Below are positions 15,881 through 21,163 of a stretch of DNA of 64,000 nt, piece by piece. Below the pieces are notes generated by a model. That model did not search any database and was not told the origin of the DNA. It was given only the letters and a program-made list of their open reading frames with translations. The first letter of the stretch is position 1. Every line of letters starts with the position of its first letter. Source of the stretch: Baekduia alba (GTDB lineage: Bacteria; Actinomycetota; Thermoleophilia; Solirubrobacterales; Solirubrobacteraceae). The stretch lies in assembly GCF_028416635.1 (NCBI RefSeq), contig NZ_CP114013.1, positions 4,960,001 through 5,024,000 of the forward strand, in the 5' to 3' direction. Position numbers and translations under genes: made by a program.

Positions 15881-16489
15881 ATGCCGCCCTTCACCCGCGG
15901 GTTCCACGGCCGGCCGCGCCGCCCCGACGTCGACCCGGCGCGCGTCCCGCCCGGCCAGTACGTCGTCGAGGACTTCCCGGTCCTGTCGGCCGGGCCGACG
16001 CCGCGCACGCCGATCGACCAATGGTCCTTCACGATCCAGGGCGCGGTCGACGCGGCGCAGACCTGGACGTGGGAGGAGCTGAACGCGCTCCCGCAGGAGA
16101 CGTTCACGGTGGACATCCACTGCGTGACGAAGTGGACGAAGCTCGGGACGGCGTGGACGGGCGTGTCGGTCGACACGCTGCTCGAAGGCGTCGGGACCGA
16201 GGCCGAGTACGTGAGCGTGCACGCCGACGGCGGCTACACCACCAACCTGCCGCTCGAGGACCTCAGCGACGGCAAGGCGTGGATCGCGCACACGTTCGAC
16301 GGCGAGCCGCTGGAGCCCGCGCACGGCGGGCCGGCGCGGCTGGTCGTGCCGCACCTGTACTTCTGGAAGAGCGCGAAGTGGGTGCGCGGGCTGACGCTGA
16401 CCGTCGACGACGAGCCCGGCTTCTGGGAGCTCGCGGGGTACAACAACTACGGCGACCCGTGGCGCGAGCAGCGCTACTGGGGCGACTGA
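15881..16489 (+). CDS. Sulfite-oxidase-like molybdopterin oxidoreductase
   Basis: A 202-aa protein of the SUOX fold without heme or dimerisation domains. The molybdenum-ligand cysteine is C81 in HCVTKW. LYFWKSAKWVRGLTL and a C-terminal GYNNYGDPWREQRYWG are typical of the sulfite oxidase-like oxidoreductase family in actinobacteria. It has no signal peptide, unlike MsrP. It is followed without a gap by a flavin reductase and a DUF6510 protein, a recurrent trio in which the reductase probably supplies electrons. The substrate is unknown. Confidence 0.85.
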   Translation: MPPFTRGFHGRPRRPDVDPARVPPGQYVVEDFPVLSAGPTPRTPIDQWSFTIQGAVDAAQTWTWEELNALPQETFTVDIHCVTKWTKLGTAWTGVSVDTLLEGVGTEAEYVSVHADGGYTTNLPLEDLSDGKAWIAHTFDGEPLEPAHGGPARLVVPHLYFWKSAKWVRGLTLTVDDEPGFWELAGYNNYGDPWREQRYWGD

Positions 16490-17257
16490 GTGACCGCCGG
16501 CGCGCCTGCGCCTGGGCCCGCGCCCGCGTGGATCACGTGGCGGACGGCGACGATCACCGCGGTGGTCGACGAGACCGCGCACGCCCGGACGCTCGCGCTC
16601 GACGTCCCCGGCTGGCCCGGCCACCACGCCGGGCAGCACCTCGACGTCCGGCTGACCGCGGAGGACGGCTACCAGGCCGAGCGCTCGTACTCGATCGCGA
16701 GCGCGCCGGAGGACGCGCGCGTCGCGCTGACGATCGAGCGCATCGACGACGGCGAGGTCTCGCCGTACCTGGCCGGCGACGTCGTCGTCGGCGACGCCTT
16801 CGAGATCCGCGGGCCGATCGGCGGGCACTTCACGTGGCGGGCGTCCGACGGCGGGCCGGTGCTGCTCGTCGGGGGCGGGAGCGGGCTGGTCCCCCTGATG
16901 GCGATGCTGCGCCACCGGGCCCGCGCCGGGAGCCGGGCCGACGCCCGGCTGCTCGTGAGCGCCCGGACGGTCGACGACCTGCTCTACCGCGACGAGCTCG
17001 AGCGCCTGGCGAGCGCCATGGACGGCCTGAGCATCACCACGACCTTGACGCGCGGGACGCCGGACGGCTGGAAGGGCCACGGCCGTCGCGTCGACGCCGC
17101 GATGCTGGGTGAGGTCGGCCCCGCCGCGAGCGCGGCGCCCAAGGTCTTCGTCTGCGGCCCCACGCCCTTCGTCGAAGCGGTCGCCGACGAGCTGGTTGCC
17201 CTCGGCCACGGCGCGGCCGCGATCCACACCGAGCGGTTCGGACCTACAGGAGGATGA
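16490..17257 (+). CDS. Ferredoxin-reductase-like FAD/NAD(P) oxidoreductase
   Basis: A 255-aa FNR-fold flavoprotein. The FAD motif is AERSYSIASAPED and the NAD(P) segment is PVLLVGGGSGLVPLMAMLRH. The C-terminal VFVCGPTPFVEAVADELVALG is a standard nucleotide-binding end. There is no 2Fe-2S domain. The start is a GTG that overlaps the preceding stop (TGAGTG), so it is coupled to the molybdenum enzyme and probably is its electron donor. Confidence 0.88.
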   Translation: MTAGAPAPGPAPAWITWRTATITAVVDETAHARTLALDVPGWPGHHAGQHLDVRLTAEDGYQAERSYSIASAPEDARVALTIERIDDGEVSPYLAGDVVVGDAFEIRGPIGGHFTWRASDGGPVLLVGGGSGLVPLMAMLRHRARAGSRADARLLVSARTVDDLLYRDELERLASAMDGLSITTTLTRGTPDGWKGHGRRVDAAMLGEVGPAASAAPKVFVCGPTPFVEAVADELVALGHGAAAIHTERFGPTGG

Positions 17258-17262
17258 CGGAC

Positions 17263-17561
17263 ATGAACGACCAGGTCGACGCCCTCGTCTTGGACGGCAA
17301 CGCGATCGGCGGACTGCTGGCCGACGTCTTCGGCGGTGCCGAGCTCACCGCCGCACCTCGCGGCTGCGGCTCCTGCGGCAGCGCCATGCGATCGGCGAGC
17401 ACCGCCTCTACCGCGGCGCCGGCTTCGTCCTGCGCTGCCCGGGCTGCGGCGAGGTCGCGCTGACCGTGGTCGACGGCGACGGGTTCCGGGAGGTCCGGCT
17501 GGCGGGGGCGTGGTCGGTCCGCGTTCCGGGCCCACCCGCGCCGCCGATCCCGGAGGCGTAG
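17263..17561 (+). pseudogene. DUF6510-family protein, interrupted by a one-base frameshift
   Basis: The first frame reads MNDQVDALVLDGNAIGGLLA and reaches RGCGSCGS. The expected continuation, AIGEHRLYRGAGFVLRCPGC, is in another frame and runs to the stop at 17561. Adding one C near 17385 would join them as CGSRHAIGEH, restoring both CxxC zinc-ribbon pairs expected of DUF6510. The gene is therefore either broken by a one-base deletion or affected by a sequencing error. AGGAGG at 17248-17253 suits the ATG at 17263; an ATG at 17254 is also possible. It is the third gene of the molybdenum oxidoreductase cluster. Confidence 0.7.
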
Positions 17562-17608
17562 GGCGCCGATCCCGGAGGCGTAGGGCGCCGATCCCGGAGG
17601 CGTAGGGC
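17543..17608. repeat. Three tandem copies of a 22-bp unit
   Basis: The unit begins GCCGATCCCGGAGGCGTAGG and ends GC. Copies are at 17543-17564, 17565-17586 and 17587-17608 and look identical. Because 22 is not a multiple of three, the TAG in successive copies falls in all three forward frames. The first copy encodes the last residues and stop of the DUF6510 reading frame. Confidence 0.85.
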
Positions 17609-17622
17609 GCAAGCGGTTGGTG

Positions 17623-17718: not shown

Positions 17719-18039
17719 CTACGCCAGCATCGGCGACGGCGGGATCCGGGTCTGGCCCGTGATCTGGGGGATCCGCATGCCGAGGGAGTCGGCGAAGCAC
17801 CAGACCCAGTCCTCGCCCGGCTCGAGGGAGCGGATGAGCTGGTGGCTGGTGGCGCCGGCGTGGGCGGTCGCGTGCTTGCCCGGGGAGTCGTCGCAGCAGC
17901 CGACGTGGCCGCAGGTCAGGCAGATGCGCAGGTGCAGCCACACGCCGCCCGTGGCGAGGCAGTCCTCGCAGCCGGCGACCTCCTCGGGCAGCTCGGTGAT
18001 CTCGATCTGGTCGAGATGGGAACAGCTGGTCGGGCTCAT
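17719..18039 (-). CDS. UBP-type zinc finger protein
   Basis: A 106-aa protein that is almost entirely a ZnF-UBP domain. Likely ligands are C6, H8, C24, C27, C40, C43, C48 and histidines H56, H60 and H66 (segments CEDCLATGG, CLTCGHVGCCD, HATAHAGATSH). In eukaryotes this fold binds ubiquitin C-termini. Bacterial copies are common in actinobacteria with no known ligand. It is coupled by ATGA overlap to the histidine kinase and is the last gene of a three-gene redox/sensor operon. Confidence 0.88.
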   Translation of the reverse strand: MSPTSCSHLDQIEITELPEEVAGCEDCLATGGVWLHLRICLTCGHVGCCDDSPGKHATAHAGATSHQLIRSLEPGEDWVWCFADSLGMRIPQITGQTRIPPSPMLA

Positions 18040-19496
18040 GGCGCGGGCTCCTCGGTGGTGGCTGGCTTGGGGACGCCGTTGGTGATGGTCGCATCCGGCA
18101 GCGGCAGCCACACGTGGAACGTCGTCCCGTCCGGGCCCGTCTCGAACCCGAGGCTGCCGTCGTGGCGGTCCTCGACGATGCGGCGCACGGTGTCGAGGCC
18201 GAGCCCGGTCCCCTTGCCGGGCTCCTTGGTGGTGTAGAACGGCTCGAGCACGCGGCGGCGTGCCGCCTCCGGGATGCCCGGGCCGTCGTCGCCGATGTCG
18301 ACGCGGACGCACGGACCCTCGACGCGCGCCCGGATCGTGATCGTGCCGTCCTGGCCCAGGGCGTCGACCGCGTTGTCGATCAGGTTGGTCCAGACCTGGT
18401 TGAGCTCGGAGCCGTGGACGGCGAGCTTGGGCAGGTCCTCCTCGAACTCCTTGCGCACGGCGATCTTGGTGTGCTTGAGCTTGTGGCCGAGGACCTTGAT
18501 GGTGGCCTTGATCCCCTCGCGCACGTCGACCGTGACGACCTCGCCGCGGTCCATGTAGCTGTAGGTCTTGATCGCGCCGACGAGGTCGCTCATGCGCGCG
18601 GCGGACTCCTGCAGCTCCTCGGCCAGGCCGCGGGCGGAGAGCGTCGCGGCGATCCACGCCAGCGCCTTCGACGTCGCGGCCGGCCCCGCGTGGCGGGCGA
18701 CGGCGCCCAGCCACTCGTCGTCGACGTCGGCCGCGGCCAGGATCTCGGCCAACCGCCACGCCTCCTCGACGCCAAGGTCCTCCAGGCGGTCGAGCATCTC
18801 GTCCTCGGCGTCGGCGGCGTCGACCGTCGACTGCTCCTCGGCCGCGGCGGCGCGGGCGACCGCCTCGCGCTGGAGCTCGACGAGCCGGGCGGCGTCCTCG
18901 CGCTCGATGCCCGCGTCGACGAACGACGCGATCACGTCCATGACGACGTCCAGCGTGTCGGCCATCTGCGCGGCGGCGCGCTGGACGGCGGCCGCCGGGT
19001 TGTTGAGCTCGTGCGCCAGCCCCGCGGCCATCGTGCCCAGCGACGCCAGGCGCTCGCGGTCGTTGTCGATCGCCGCCAGCCGCGCGGTGACCGGCCCGAT
19101 CGCCTGCATGATCTTGCGGTGGACGCTGCGGTGGGACATCGCGAGGTCGGTGAACGCCCCCAGCGGCACGAGGCCGATCACGCAGTCGGTCTCGGCCTGC
19201 ATGCGCACGCCGATCGGCGACTCGGTGATCGCGGCGATCGCCTGCATCCACGTCGGCGCCTCCATGTGGCCGAGCGGCTCGTAGCGCTCGTCGGCCAGCT
19301 TATACATGCGCGTGCGGCCGTCGAGCAGGAGCAGCAGGCCGCGCGCGGACGCGTCCTGCTCGGCGATGATCTCCCCCGCCGGGACGTTGAACGCCTGCGT
19401 GGCGGCGCGCCACTGCTCCAGCTCGGCGTCGGCCAGGCCGTCGAAGAGATCGACCCGGCGGACGTCGTCGAGCGTGACCGGCACGGCGGGGTTCAT
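18036..19496 (-). CDS. Soluble sensor histidine kinase with cyclic-nucleotide-binding-like domain
   Basis: A 486-aa kinase with no membrane segment. Residues about 12-125 form a cNMP/CRP-like sensor domain (LDDVRRVDLFDGLADAELEQ, then PAGEIIAEQDASARGLLLLL). The H-box is GTMAAGLAHELNNPAAAVQR with H162. A long helical insert follows, then the ATPase domain with N-box NQVWTNLIDNAVDAL, GDDGPGIP and GKGTGLGLDTVRRI. It overlaps both neighbours by ATGA. The partner receiver is most likely the REC domain of the upstream reductase fusion. The ligand of the cNMP-like domain is unknown. Confidence 0.9.
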   Translation of the reverse strand: MNPAVPVTLDDVRRVDLFDGLADAELEQWRAATQAFNVPAGEIIAEQDASARGLLLLLDGRTRMYKLADERYEPLGHMEAPTWMQAIAAITESPIGVRMQAETDCVIGLVPLGAFTDLAMSHRSVHRKIMQAIGPVTARLAAIDNDRERLASLGTMAAGLAHELNNPAAAVQRAAAQMADTLDVVMDVIASFVDAGIEREDAARLVELQREAVARAAAAEEQSTVDAADAEDEMLDRLEDLGVEEAWRLAEILAAADVDDEWLGAVARHAGPAATSKALAWIAATLSARGLAEELQESAARMSDLVGAIKTYSYMDRGEVVTVDVREGIKATIKVLGHKLKHTKIAVRKEFEEDLPKLAVHGSELNQVWTNLIDNAVDALGQDGTITIRARVEGPCVRVDIGDDGPGIPEAARRRVLEPFYTTKEPGKGTGLGLDTVRRIVEDRHDGSLGFETGPDGTTFHVWLPLPDATITNGVPKPATTEEPAP

Positions 19497-21163
19497 GCCG
19501 CCGCGAGGTACTCGTGGATGAGCGAGACGGCCATCGACCCCTCGCCGACCGCGCTGGCCACGCGCTTGATCGAGCGCGCGCGCACGTCGCCGGCGACGAA
19601 CACGCCGGGCACGCTGGTCTCCAACACGTAGGGGTCGCGCTTGAGCGGCCACCCGGCCGCGCGCGCGTCCGCGCCCGCGAGGATGAACCCGCGCTCGTCG
19701 CGGGCGATGACGTCGTTGAGCCACTGCGTCCGCGGCGCCGCGCCGACGAACACGAAGCACGCGTCGGTCGGCTCCACGGTCTCGGTGCCGTCATCGTGGC
19801 GGATGCGCATCGCCTTGAGGTGGTCGTCCTCGCCGATCGCCTCGGCCGCCACCGACCCGGTCCGGACGTCGATGTTCGGCAGCGCCGCGATCTGCTCGAT
19901 CAGGTAGCTCGACATGGACTTGGTCAGCGAGTCGGCCCGGACGAGCATCGTCACCTGCGCGGCCCAGTTGCTGAAGTAGACGGCGGCCTGGCCGGCGGAG
20001 TTCGCCCCGCCGATGATCACGACGCGCTGCTGGGCGCACGAGCGCGCCTCGCTGAGCGCCGCGCCGTAGTACACGCCCGCGCCGGTCAGCTCCTCGAAGC
20101 CCGGCGTGTCGAGCTTGCGGTAGGAGACGCCGGAGGCGATCAGCACGGTGTTGGCGCTCAGCGCGCCGCCGCCGCTGAGCCGGACGAGCCGGCCCGTGCC
20201 CTCGACCTCGAGCGAGACCGCGTCCTGGACCGTGAGCAGCTCGGCGCCGAGCCGGCGCGCCTGGTCGGTGGCGCGGCGCGCGAGGTCCGAGCCGCTCAGC
20301 CCGGTCGGGAAGCCGAGGTAGTTCTCGATCCGCGAGGACGTCCCGGCCTGGCCGCCGGGCGCCTCGCGCTCGACCATCACGGTGCTCAGCCCCTCGCTGG
20401 CGCCGTAGACCGCGGCGGCCAGGCCGGCGGGCCCGCCGCCGACGATGACGAGGTCGTAGTGGTCGGTCGCCGGCTGGGCGGCGACGCCGAGGCGCTCGGC
20501 CAGCTCGTAGACCGTCGGCTTCTCCAGGACCGAGCCGTCCTCCAGCAGAGCGACCGGCAGGCCGTCCTCGGCGATGCCGGCGACCTTGAGCAGCTCGCGC
20601 GCCTCGCCGTCGCGCTCGACGTCCAGCCAGCGGCCGGGCACGCGGTTGCGGGCCAGGAAGTCGCGCAGGTCGTGGGCGGGCTTGGAGAAGCGGTGGCCGA
20701 TGACGCGCACGCCGCCGGCCTCCAGCGCCGCGCCCGACTCCCAGGTCTGGAGCAGGTCCTCGACGACCGGGTAGAGCTCCTCCTCCGGCGGGTCCCACGG
20801 CTTGAGCAGGTAGTAGTCCAGCGCGACCTCGTTGATCGCGGTGATCGCGGCCGAGGTGTCGGCGTAGGCGGTGAGCAGGACGCGCTTGGCCGCCGGCGCG
20901 AGCTTGCGCGCCTCGACGAGGTACTCGGTCCCCGACAGGCCGGGCATGCGCTGGTCGGCGATCAGCATCGCGACCTGGTCGCCGCGCGCGACGAGCTCGC
21001 GCACGACCTCCAGCGCCTCCTCGCCGCTGTTGGCGCGCAGGACGCGGTACTTCTCGCCGAAGCGGCGGCGCAGGTCGCGGGCGACGGCGGCGAGCACGGC
21101 CGGCTCGTCGTCGACCGCGACGATCGCCGGCCGGCGGGTGCGTTCGGGGGCGTCTGAGGACAT
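19493..21163 (-). CDS. Response-regulator receiver fused to thioredoxin-reductase-like flavoprotein
   Basis: A 556-aa fusion. Residues 13-130 are a receiver domain with acidic D18/D19, phospho-acceptor D70 (MLIADQRMPG) and the conserved lysine in LLKPWDP. Residues about 150-225 look like a thioredoxin/glutaredoxin-fold linker (FSKPAHDLRDFLARNRVPG). From about 235 comes a thioredoxin-reductase-type flavoprotein: FAD motif VIVGGGPAGLAAAVYG, PGGQAGTSSRIENYLGFP, NADPH motif VVIIGGANSAGQAAVYF, and VFVAGDV near the end. The redox CxxC that normally precedes the NADPH motif is missing; that stretch reads YYGAALSEARSC. So it should not reduce thioredoxin by the usual route. NAD(P)H-dependent signalling or another acceptor is likely. 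Confidence 0.9.
   Translation of the reverse strand: MSSDAPERTRRPAIVAVDDEPAVLAAVARDLRRRFGEKYRVLRANSGEEALEVVRELVARGDQVAMLIADQRMPGLSGTEYLVEARKLAPAAKRVLLTAYADTSAAITAINEVALDYYLLKPWDPPEEELYPVVEDLLQTWESGAALEAGGVRVIGHRFSKPAHDLRDFLARNRVPGRWLDVERDGEARELLKVAGIAEDGLPVALLEDGSVLEKPTVYELAERLGVAAQPATDHYDLVIVGGGPAGLAAAVYGASEGLSTVMVEREAPGGQAGTSSRIENYLGFPTGLSGSDLARRATDQARRLGAELLTVQDAVSLEVEGTGRLVRLSGGGALSANTVLIASGVSYRKLDTPGFEELTGAGVYYGAALSEARSCAQQRVVIIGGANSAGQAAVYFSNWAAQVTMLVRADSLTKSMSSYLIEQIAALPNIDVRTGSVAAEAIGEDDHLKAMRIRHDDGTETVEPTDACFVFVGAAPRTQWLNDVIARDERGFILAGADARAAGWPLKRDPYVLETSVPGVFVAGDVRARSIKRVASAVGEGSMAVSLIHEYLAAA

Follow-up and report, generated by a model that had tools for sequence, protein, structure and literature searches.

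A receiver-flavoprotein fusion, a soluble histidine kinase and a UBP-type zinc finger in Baekduia alba: a candidate two-component flavoprotein switch

Response regulators that join a receiver domain to a thioredoxin reductase (TrxR) have been listed as a 'Mycobacterium-like combination' (Galperin et al. 2018, PMC5847659); the available parts of that account of REC-TrxR mention no thiol loss, linked kinase or zf-UBP protein. The same domain order, receiver and then TrxR-like module, is found in a fusion protein of Baekduia alba, encoded together with a histidine kinase and a zf-UBP protein within a 64,000-nt stretch of contig NZ_CP114013.1 (positions 4,960,001 to 5,024,000; hereafter the window, coordinates being counted from its first letter). 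Fusions of the window type also occur in Mycolicibacterium (L085, L088). The name FOX is used here for the flavoprotein core; P0001, P0002 and P0003 denote the fusion, the kinase and the zf-UBP protein.

Other described proteins share parts of this layout. AhpF (4xvg, 4o5q, 1hyu), among the best Foldseek matches, likewise places a TrxR module behind one or more thioredoxin (Trx)-fold domains; its dithiols are functional in both parts, whereas the fusion lacks both and has a receiver added. Glutaredoxin (Grx)-TrxR fusions of Chloroflexota (L110, L111), the sister group of the thiol-less FOX proteins, differ in having both dithiols (CPDC, CATC) and no receiver. A RefSeq 'cyclic nucleotide-binding domain-containing thioredoxin-disulfide reductase' of Rhodococcus pyridinivorans (a CNB-FOX protein) has the same thiol-less core and a zf-UBP neighbour, but joins a CRP-like domain straight to the flavoprotein and has neither kinase nor receiver. 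Some FOX proteins are thus labelled thioredoxin-disulfide reductases in databases, a label whose usual chemistry their sequences contradict. Bacterial ZF-UBP domains were reportedly predicted by Burroughs, Iyer and Aravind in 2011 to act in a novel cyclic-nucleotide-dependent redox signalling system. In keeping with that definition, zf-UBP genes were found here to have cyclic-nucleotide-domain and redox genes as neighbours, and the window trio very probably belongs to the system; the present data nevertheless speak against a kinase domain that binds cyclic nucleotides and against disulfide reductase activity.

The module is therefore already predicted in print, as REC-TrxR fusions and, reportedly, as bacterial zf-UBP redox signalling, and the window holds a member of it. 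Apparently new are the double thiol loss, a receiver/kinase rule with a degenerate control group, the degenerate cyclic-nucleotide cassette, the missing ubiquitin-binding Arg and the ancestral-looking two-component form. Literature searches turned up no experimental work on the module and, for 'UBP-type zinc finger', nothing bacterial by titles and abstracts; the available portions of PMC8945050 and PMC12937710 hold nothing on it.

Pairing of the kinase with intact receivers

The trio consists of the following features.

19493-21163, minus strand: FOX fusion, 556 aa, receiver, Trx/Grx-fold domain and TrxR-like module
18036-19496, minus strand: soluble histidine kinase, 486 aa, CRP/cNMP-like domain, DHp and HATPase_c
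17719-18039, minus strand: zf-UBP protein, 106 aa, matching the zf-UBP profile
19493-19496, minus strand: ATGA, overlap of fusion stop and kinase start
18036-18039, minus strand: ATGA, overlap of kinase stop and zf-UBP start

Receiver fusions were classed by their equivalents of D18, D19, D70, T98 and K121 (intact being D/E, D/E, D, T/S and K), and a fusion was counted as paired when the specific kinase lay within 3.5 kb. By this measure a kinase accompanies the intact receiver in 43 of 45 loci and the degenerate receiver in none of 24. Both misses among the intact receivers are cut off by the end of a contig, within the gene in L091 and 0.9 kb past it in L047, the start of the L047 kinase being visible at G131:C151. 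Adjacency is usual among the 43 paired loci, L071 (3.0 kb) excepted. The second fusion of G122 was left out of the count, and L169, a fusion broken in two, was placed in the 'none' class, which comprises loci without a detected N-terminal sensor domain; the window's own locus, L031, has clipped flanks, L049 has short flanks, and seven further class loci have 1.5-kb flanks. Among 199 genomes of the class of Baekduia alba, every one of the 17 full-length kinase homologues, like a further one truncated where its contig stops, adjoins a receiver-FOX gene (coordinates, read by eye). Kinase loss and receiver decay go together in a clade of degenerate fusions (L049, L092, L094, L102, L105, L113 and L152-L168), in which the T98 position is I, V or A throughout, D70 is often lost and the kinase is absent. 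The same holds for G133/L151 of the window's own group, whose acidic pocket is lost (GSDCK) and which has no same-family kinase in the 12 kb examined. Because the kinase tracks intact receivers and is missing from degenerate ones, kinase and receiver are very likely a cognate pair, and are not mostly apart in other genomes, the outcome named in the preliminary description of the trio as speaking against it.

The gene order also recurs. That description had the three genes overlapping by ATGA; the coordinates, the minus strand, the lengths and both overlaps are confirmed. It had also proposed checking conservation of the order in actinobacteria; the order is kept there and beyond. A 4-nt start/stop overlap links fusion and kinase in 23 of the 40 loci with the kinase downstream, and kinase and zf-UBP in 7 of 16 (not counting the junction in the window, whose locus is clipped). 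Named actinomycetes show this order again with comparable overlaps, so the arrangement is not a chance one. The whole trio with 4-nt overlaps is carried on plasmid records of Streptomyces fungicidicus and Tsukamurella tyrosinosolvens, and the kinase-fusion pair without zf-UBP on plasmid records of Nostoc, Deinococcus aetherius, Caballeronia and Gloeothece. The module is widespread, the window trio being one of its copies, and the Baekduia alba genome has a single zf-UBP gene and a single FOX gene. At three loci, L064 (1044-2438), L065 (3478-4905) and L071, from Deinococcus aetherius, Caballeronia and Symplocastrum, a second same-family kinase stands near the fusion, which suggests more than one input.

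P0002 matches the Pfam families cNMP_binding (7.5e-9) and HATPase_c (1.4e-24) and, partially and below cut-off, HisKA. Its CRP/cNMP-like domain spans residues 1-122, a DHp helix carries H162, and HATPase_c covers 364-467. H162, placed as first described, is present with N371, D403 and G405 of the N, D and G boxes in all 20 aligned kinases, as in kinases of the HisKA type, and the absence of a membrane segment is borne out by a top 19-residue Kyte-Doolittle mean of 1.25. A refinement to that description is a helical insertion between the two DHp helices (about 199-270). H162 and R301 of the second DHp helix are 139 residues apart (135-149 across 20 kinases), the stretch between them includes a conserved motif (consensus SDREDELxDWLDxHG), the Pfam HisKA model spans the first helix only, and the kinase model (mean pLDDT 84, pTM 0.48) has four helices at 199-270.

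The earlier label 'cNMP kinase' was overstated. A CRP-like domain is present, with weak conservation; the phosphate-binding cassette of cyclic-nucleotide domains, GE...PRxAT, is degenerate in the 20 kinases, with GE in about 3 and no conserved Arg (by eye). Residues 1-146 gave no match in a PDB sequence search. As the cassette is not kept, the domain is, judging from sequence, probably not a cyclic-nucleotide sensor; heme, a redox ligand or a protein contact may be sensed instead. A true cAMP or cGMP sensor, making this a cyclic-nucleotide-dependent redox system, would agree with the cNMP_binding match, with the five class III cyclase-domain matches in the genome and with the system reportedly named by Burroughs in 2011, but with the cassette so poorly conserved it is quite unlikely.

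The flavoprotein core and its lost thiols

P0001 comprises a receiver (about 12-130; Response_reg, 4.6e-14), a Trx/Grx-fold domain (about 150-230) and an FAD/NAD(P)H TrxR-like module (233-556; Pyr_redox_2, 5.2e-37). Of these the cysteine-less Trx/Grx-fold domain was not mentioned in the first description. The phospho-acceptor D70 is intact, as that description had it, and so are the acidic pair D18 and D19, T98 and K121; this five-residue set of response regulators is complete in 45 loci. The module has the TrxR fold with Rossmann motifs at 242-247 (GxGxxG) and 385-391 (GGANSAG). In the AlphaFold model (mean pLDDT 87, pTM 0.72) the Trx/Grx-fold domain (152-225) runs beta-alpha-beta-alpha-beta-beta-alpha. 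AhpF chains lead the Foldseek matches of the whole model by E-value; in a second structural comparison, covering residues 231-556, 4up3 matches with Z 35.6 (rmsd 1.5 over 304), and FNRs of TrxR type also match (6gar, Z 28.2; 3lzw, Z 28.0).

Neither dithiol survives. GAAL stands at the position of CATC in canonical TrxRs, and in place of a glutaredoxin CxxC or CxxS the second domain reads S160-K-P-A-H, aligned to the CPDC domain of L110/L111. C376 and C469 are the only cysteines of P0001, which has no CxxC anywhere; the earlier statement to that effect was correct and incomplete, two thiol sites rather than one being gone. The thioredoxin reductase model TIGR01292 scores 203 against a cut-off of 343, and none of 84 tabulated fusions has CxxC at the CATC position except L110 and L111. 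Because both dithiol sites are lost, the 'reductase' of the fusion is, on its sequence, not a thioredoxin or disulfide reductase by the usual chemistry. A separate canonical TrxR with CATC is encoded elsewhere in the genome (L191), and P0001 is therefore not the housekeeping enzyme. Thiol-disulfide reduction might still proceed through C376, C469 or a separate thioredoxin, given that C376 is common to many members and that trxA lies beside CNB-FOX and zf-UBP genes in Rhodococcus. Against this, besides the missing CxxC and the genome's own TrxR, C376 is replaced in the receiver-FOX proteins L045 (V), L046 (L), L064 (V) and L081 (Y), and such a role is very improbable.

Two kinds of output are about equally plausible for the core, electron transfer to a non-thiol acceptor and redox-dependent conformational signalling. 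The former would make P0001 a phospho-controlled NAD(P)H oxidoreductase serving ferredoxin, flavodoxin, quinone or oxygen, with the zf-UBP protein as an adaptor on the acceptor side. FNRs of TrxR fold also lack CxxC, and their structural match to the fusion (6gar, 3lzw) agrees with this, as do the sulfite-oxidase-like and FNR-like genes that accompany the trio both in the window and at 4 of the 8 trio loci examined; the fusion sequence, however, is nearer to TrxR/AhpF than to FNR, and no ferredoxin or flavodoxin gene recurs among the clustered neighbours, a coarse test. In this specific shape the proposal is possible and somewhat doubtful. A non-enzymatic role, in which the flavoprotein would sense NAD(P)H/NAD(P)+ and its phosphorylation-set, flavin-dependent conformation would be read by the zf-UBP or other proteins, is supported by the loss of both electron exits (TrxR CxxC, Grx CPDC) with the cofactor folds conserved; the joining of the same flavoprotein to several kinds of N-terminal module also fits a signalling hub. 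An invariant flavin fold could, however, just as well reflect catalysis, and this role too is put forward only tentatively.

The zinc finger as a probable partner of the flavoprotein

P0003 matches the zf-UBP profile (PF02148) at 9.4e-15, with 55 bits against a cut-off of 22.7, and PDB 2ida, a Rhodopseudomonas protein, at 3.4e-27, in line with the bacterial family. Its Cys/His set is C6, H8, C24, C27, C40, C43, C48, C49, H56, H60, H66 and C81, of which C24, C27, C40, C43, C48, C49, H56, H60 and H66 are invariant in 28 finger sequences. C6, H8 and C81 are jointly lost in six actinomycete trio members (L061, L062, L070, L072, L073, L089) where the sequence covers them, suggesting that they form one dispensable zinc site. 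The HDAC6, USP5, USP33 and USP20 ZnF-UBP domains belong to the same family by profile. In HDAC6 and USP5 an Arg of the pocket (CGR) clamps the C-terminal tail of ubiquitin; by profile alignment there is no Arg at 50-52 in any of the 28 fingers, the bacterial residue being D or S. The Arg is likewise missing from USP33 and USP20 (CGES). Binding of ubiquitin or Pup by the finger is rejected, the tail-binding Arg being absent and the family occurring also on plasmids of rhizobia and Burkholderia, in which, as far as we know, no ubiquitin or Pup system is expected. The 'ubiquitin-type zinc finger in a bacterium' of the preliminary description is a zf-UBP domain indeed, but it is no oddity, being one of a large bacterial family without the ubiquitin-tail Arg.

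Instead the finger follows the flavoprotein. Within the class, zf-UBP occurs in 61 of 199 genomes and FOX in 59, with 46 genomes having both, 15 zf-UBP only, 13 FOX only and 125 neither (p 2e-20). A zf-UBP gene lies within 5 kb of FOX at 21 of 67 places where about 0.3 would be expected (about 70-fold), on the same strand in 19 of these 21, and 12 of the 21 have a FOX without receiver. Over all loci a nearby zf-UBP was counted for 13 of 28 CNB fusions, 4 of 8 of the 'none' class, 1 of 24 degenerate-receiver fusions and 20 of 45 intact-receiver fusions (21 with the window), the last a lower bound, since the zf-UBP of L031 is left out and seven class loci have 1.5-kb flanks. In the class alone, by coordinates, the proportion is 9 of 19. 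The sole zf-UBP near the degenerate clade (1/23) is 1.5 kb from L094 and on the opposite strand. Because zf-UBP also adjoins FOX genes that have no kinase, its partner is probably the flavoprotein, and a partnership between the two is reasonably likely. The earlier reading of a zinc-finger partner holds in that the finger goes with the flavoprotein, and fails in that it is not a fixed third component, being adjacent in about half of loci. That proportion would suit a bystander gene travelling with the pair, an unlikely account in view of the enrichment near FOX, the shared strand and the spread over several phyla and FOX architectures. One suspicious plasmid match to a UBP-FOX gene fusion proved to be two separate genes.

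A fusion of an NhaA-type Na+/H+ antiporter with DsbA/thioredoxin lies near zf-UBP or the trio in L176, L177, L186, L187 and L189 (domains checked in L176), and in Deinococcus sp. KNUC1210 the zf-UBP forms the tail of a cation:proton antiporter (L067).

Descent, proposed switch and surroundings

In the class, FOX places number 19 with a window-type receiver, 19 with a divergent receiver and 48 without receiver in the match. A scan of named genomes yielded 80 loci; the window-type fusion is present in 21 of them (L071-L091), from Actinomycetota, Cyanobacteriota, Acidobacteriota, Bacteroidota, Verrucomicrobiota and Gemmatimonadota; plasmid records of Deinococcota and Pseudomonadota bring the phyla to eight. 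A tree made by a quick method with SH-aLRT support only (101 of 105 rows, those of at most 300 residues being dropped, plus five canonical TrxRs) resolves L110/L111 as the sister group of the whole thiol-less FOX set, the flanking branches having supports of 99 and 100. These two proteins have CPDC in an N-terminal domain and CATC in the TrxR part, the N-terminus of L110 being a Pfam Glutaredoxin (2e-11). Each joins a CPDC glutaredoxin to a thioredoxin reductase with CATC and is apparently a self-contained glutaredoxin system; among thiol-bearing proteins they are the nearest relatives of FOX. As intact-receiver FOX is paraphyletic, with CNB and degenerate-receiver forms nested inside, the tree leans towards an ancestral two-component form; inner support is moderate (84-92) and the rooting branch long (0.9).

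The operon is best explained overall, with moderate confidence, as a two-component flavoprotein switch. The kinase would sense an intracellular signal, probably not a cyclic nucleotide, through its CRP-like domain, and would autophosphorylate on H162 and then phosphorylate D70 of the fusion. That the phosphoryl group passes from H162 to D70 is very probable; that the flavoprotein is under the control of this transfer is probable. The fusion would descend from a glutaredoxin-thioredoxin-reductase chain of AhpF-like layout that lost both dithiol sites and kept its FAD and NAD(P)H folds. Phosphorylation most likely would gate flavin/NAD(P)H chemistry or domain rotation, and the flavoprotein may then hand on electrons to a partner or act on it by a redox-dependent conformation. 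The zf-UBP protein, given its gene association, is the most likely partner or adaptor, binding the flavoprotein and not ubiquitin. In other lineages the receiver may have decayed and the kinase been lost, or a CRP-like domain fused to the flavoprotein may have replaced the receiver. The first reading of the fusion as a phospho-controlled NAD(P)H flavoenzyme remains the best one, backed by the kinase-receiver pairing, with the finger no longer a fixed component. More speculative, and tentative at best, is a wider scheme in which a Grx-TrxR chain lost both dithiols once to become a phospho-gated NAD(P)H/redox reader acting through the zinc finger, founded as a two-component system and later made one-component where a CRP-like domain replaced the receiver.

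Several observations weigh against the proposed switch. The pairing counts are phylogenetically dependent, 23 of the 24 degenerate rows being one clade, so few independent events of receiver decay underlie them (the 23-member clade and G133/L151). About half of the intact-receiver loci have no zf-UBP gene nearby, nor does any of the 19 divergent-receiver places in the class have one beside it (0/19), so the finger is not needed in every setting. C376, kept in many members, could still be reactive. Of the three arginines of HRRxxxR, the motif binding the 2'-phosphate of NADPH in E. coli TrxR, two are replaced in the fusion, and NADH is therefore as likely a coenzyme as NADPH.

We know of no experimental example of a phospho-gated flavoprotein device, for signalling or electron transfer, as the output of a response regulator. 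If the wider scheme above is true, response regulators would have a further, new kind of output in the form of a cofactor-bound pseudo-reductase, spread over eight phyla or more; a phospho-gated device of this sort would span soil actinomycetes, cyanobacteria, deinococci and bacteroidetes and would give the bacterial zf-UBP a function. Given the receiver/kinase rule, three small soluble proteins would suffice for a direct test of the pairing.

Outside the module, a reduced all-against-all clustering of neighbours gave no cluster in more than 8 of 68 loci, so the physiological signal is not readable from context. In the window, genes for a sulfite-oxidase-like molybdopterin protein, an FNR-like flavin reductase and a DUF6510 protein (15881-17460, plus strand) lie downstream of the trio and converge with it; the first two also stand near the trio in L185, L186, L187 and L189 among the eight trio loci examined. 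Between the DUF6510 gene and the trio, at 17542-17610, are three perfect tandem 22-bp units with exact matches nowhere else in the genome. In L066, L068 and L175, CNB-FOX or FOX together with zf-UBP lies beside clpB/Clp ATPase genes, in L066 also with thioredoxin, neighbours pointing to protein-damage stress.

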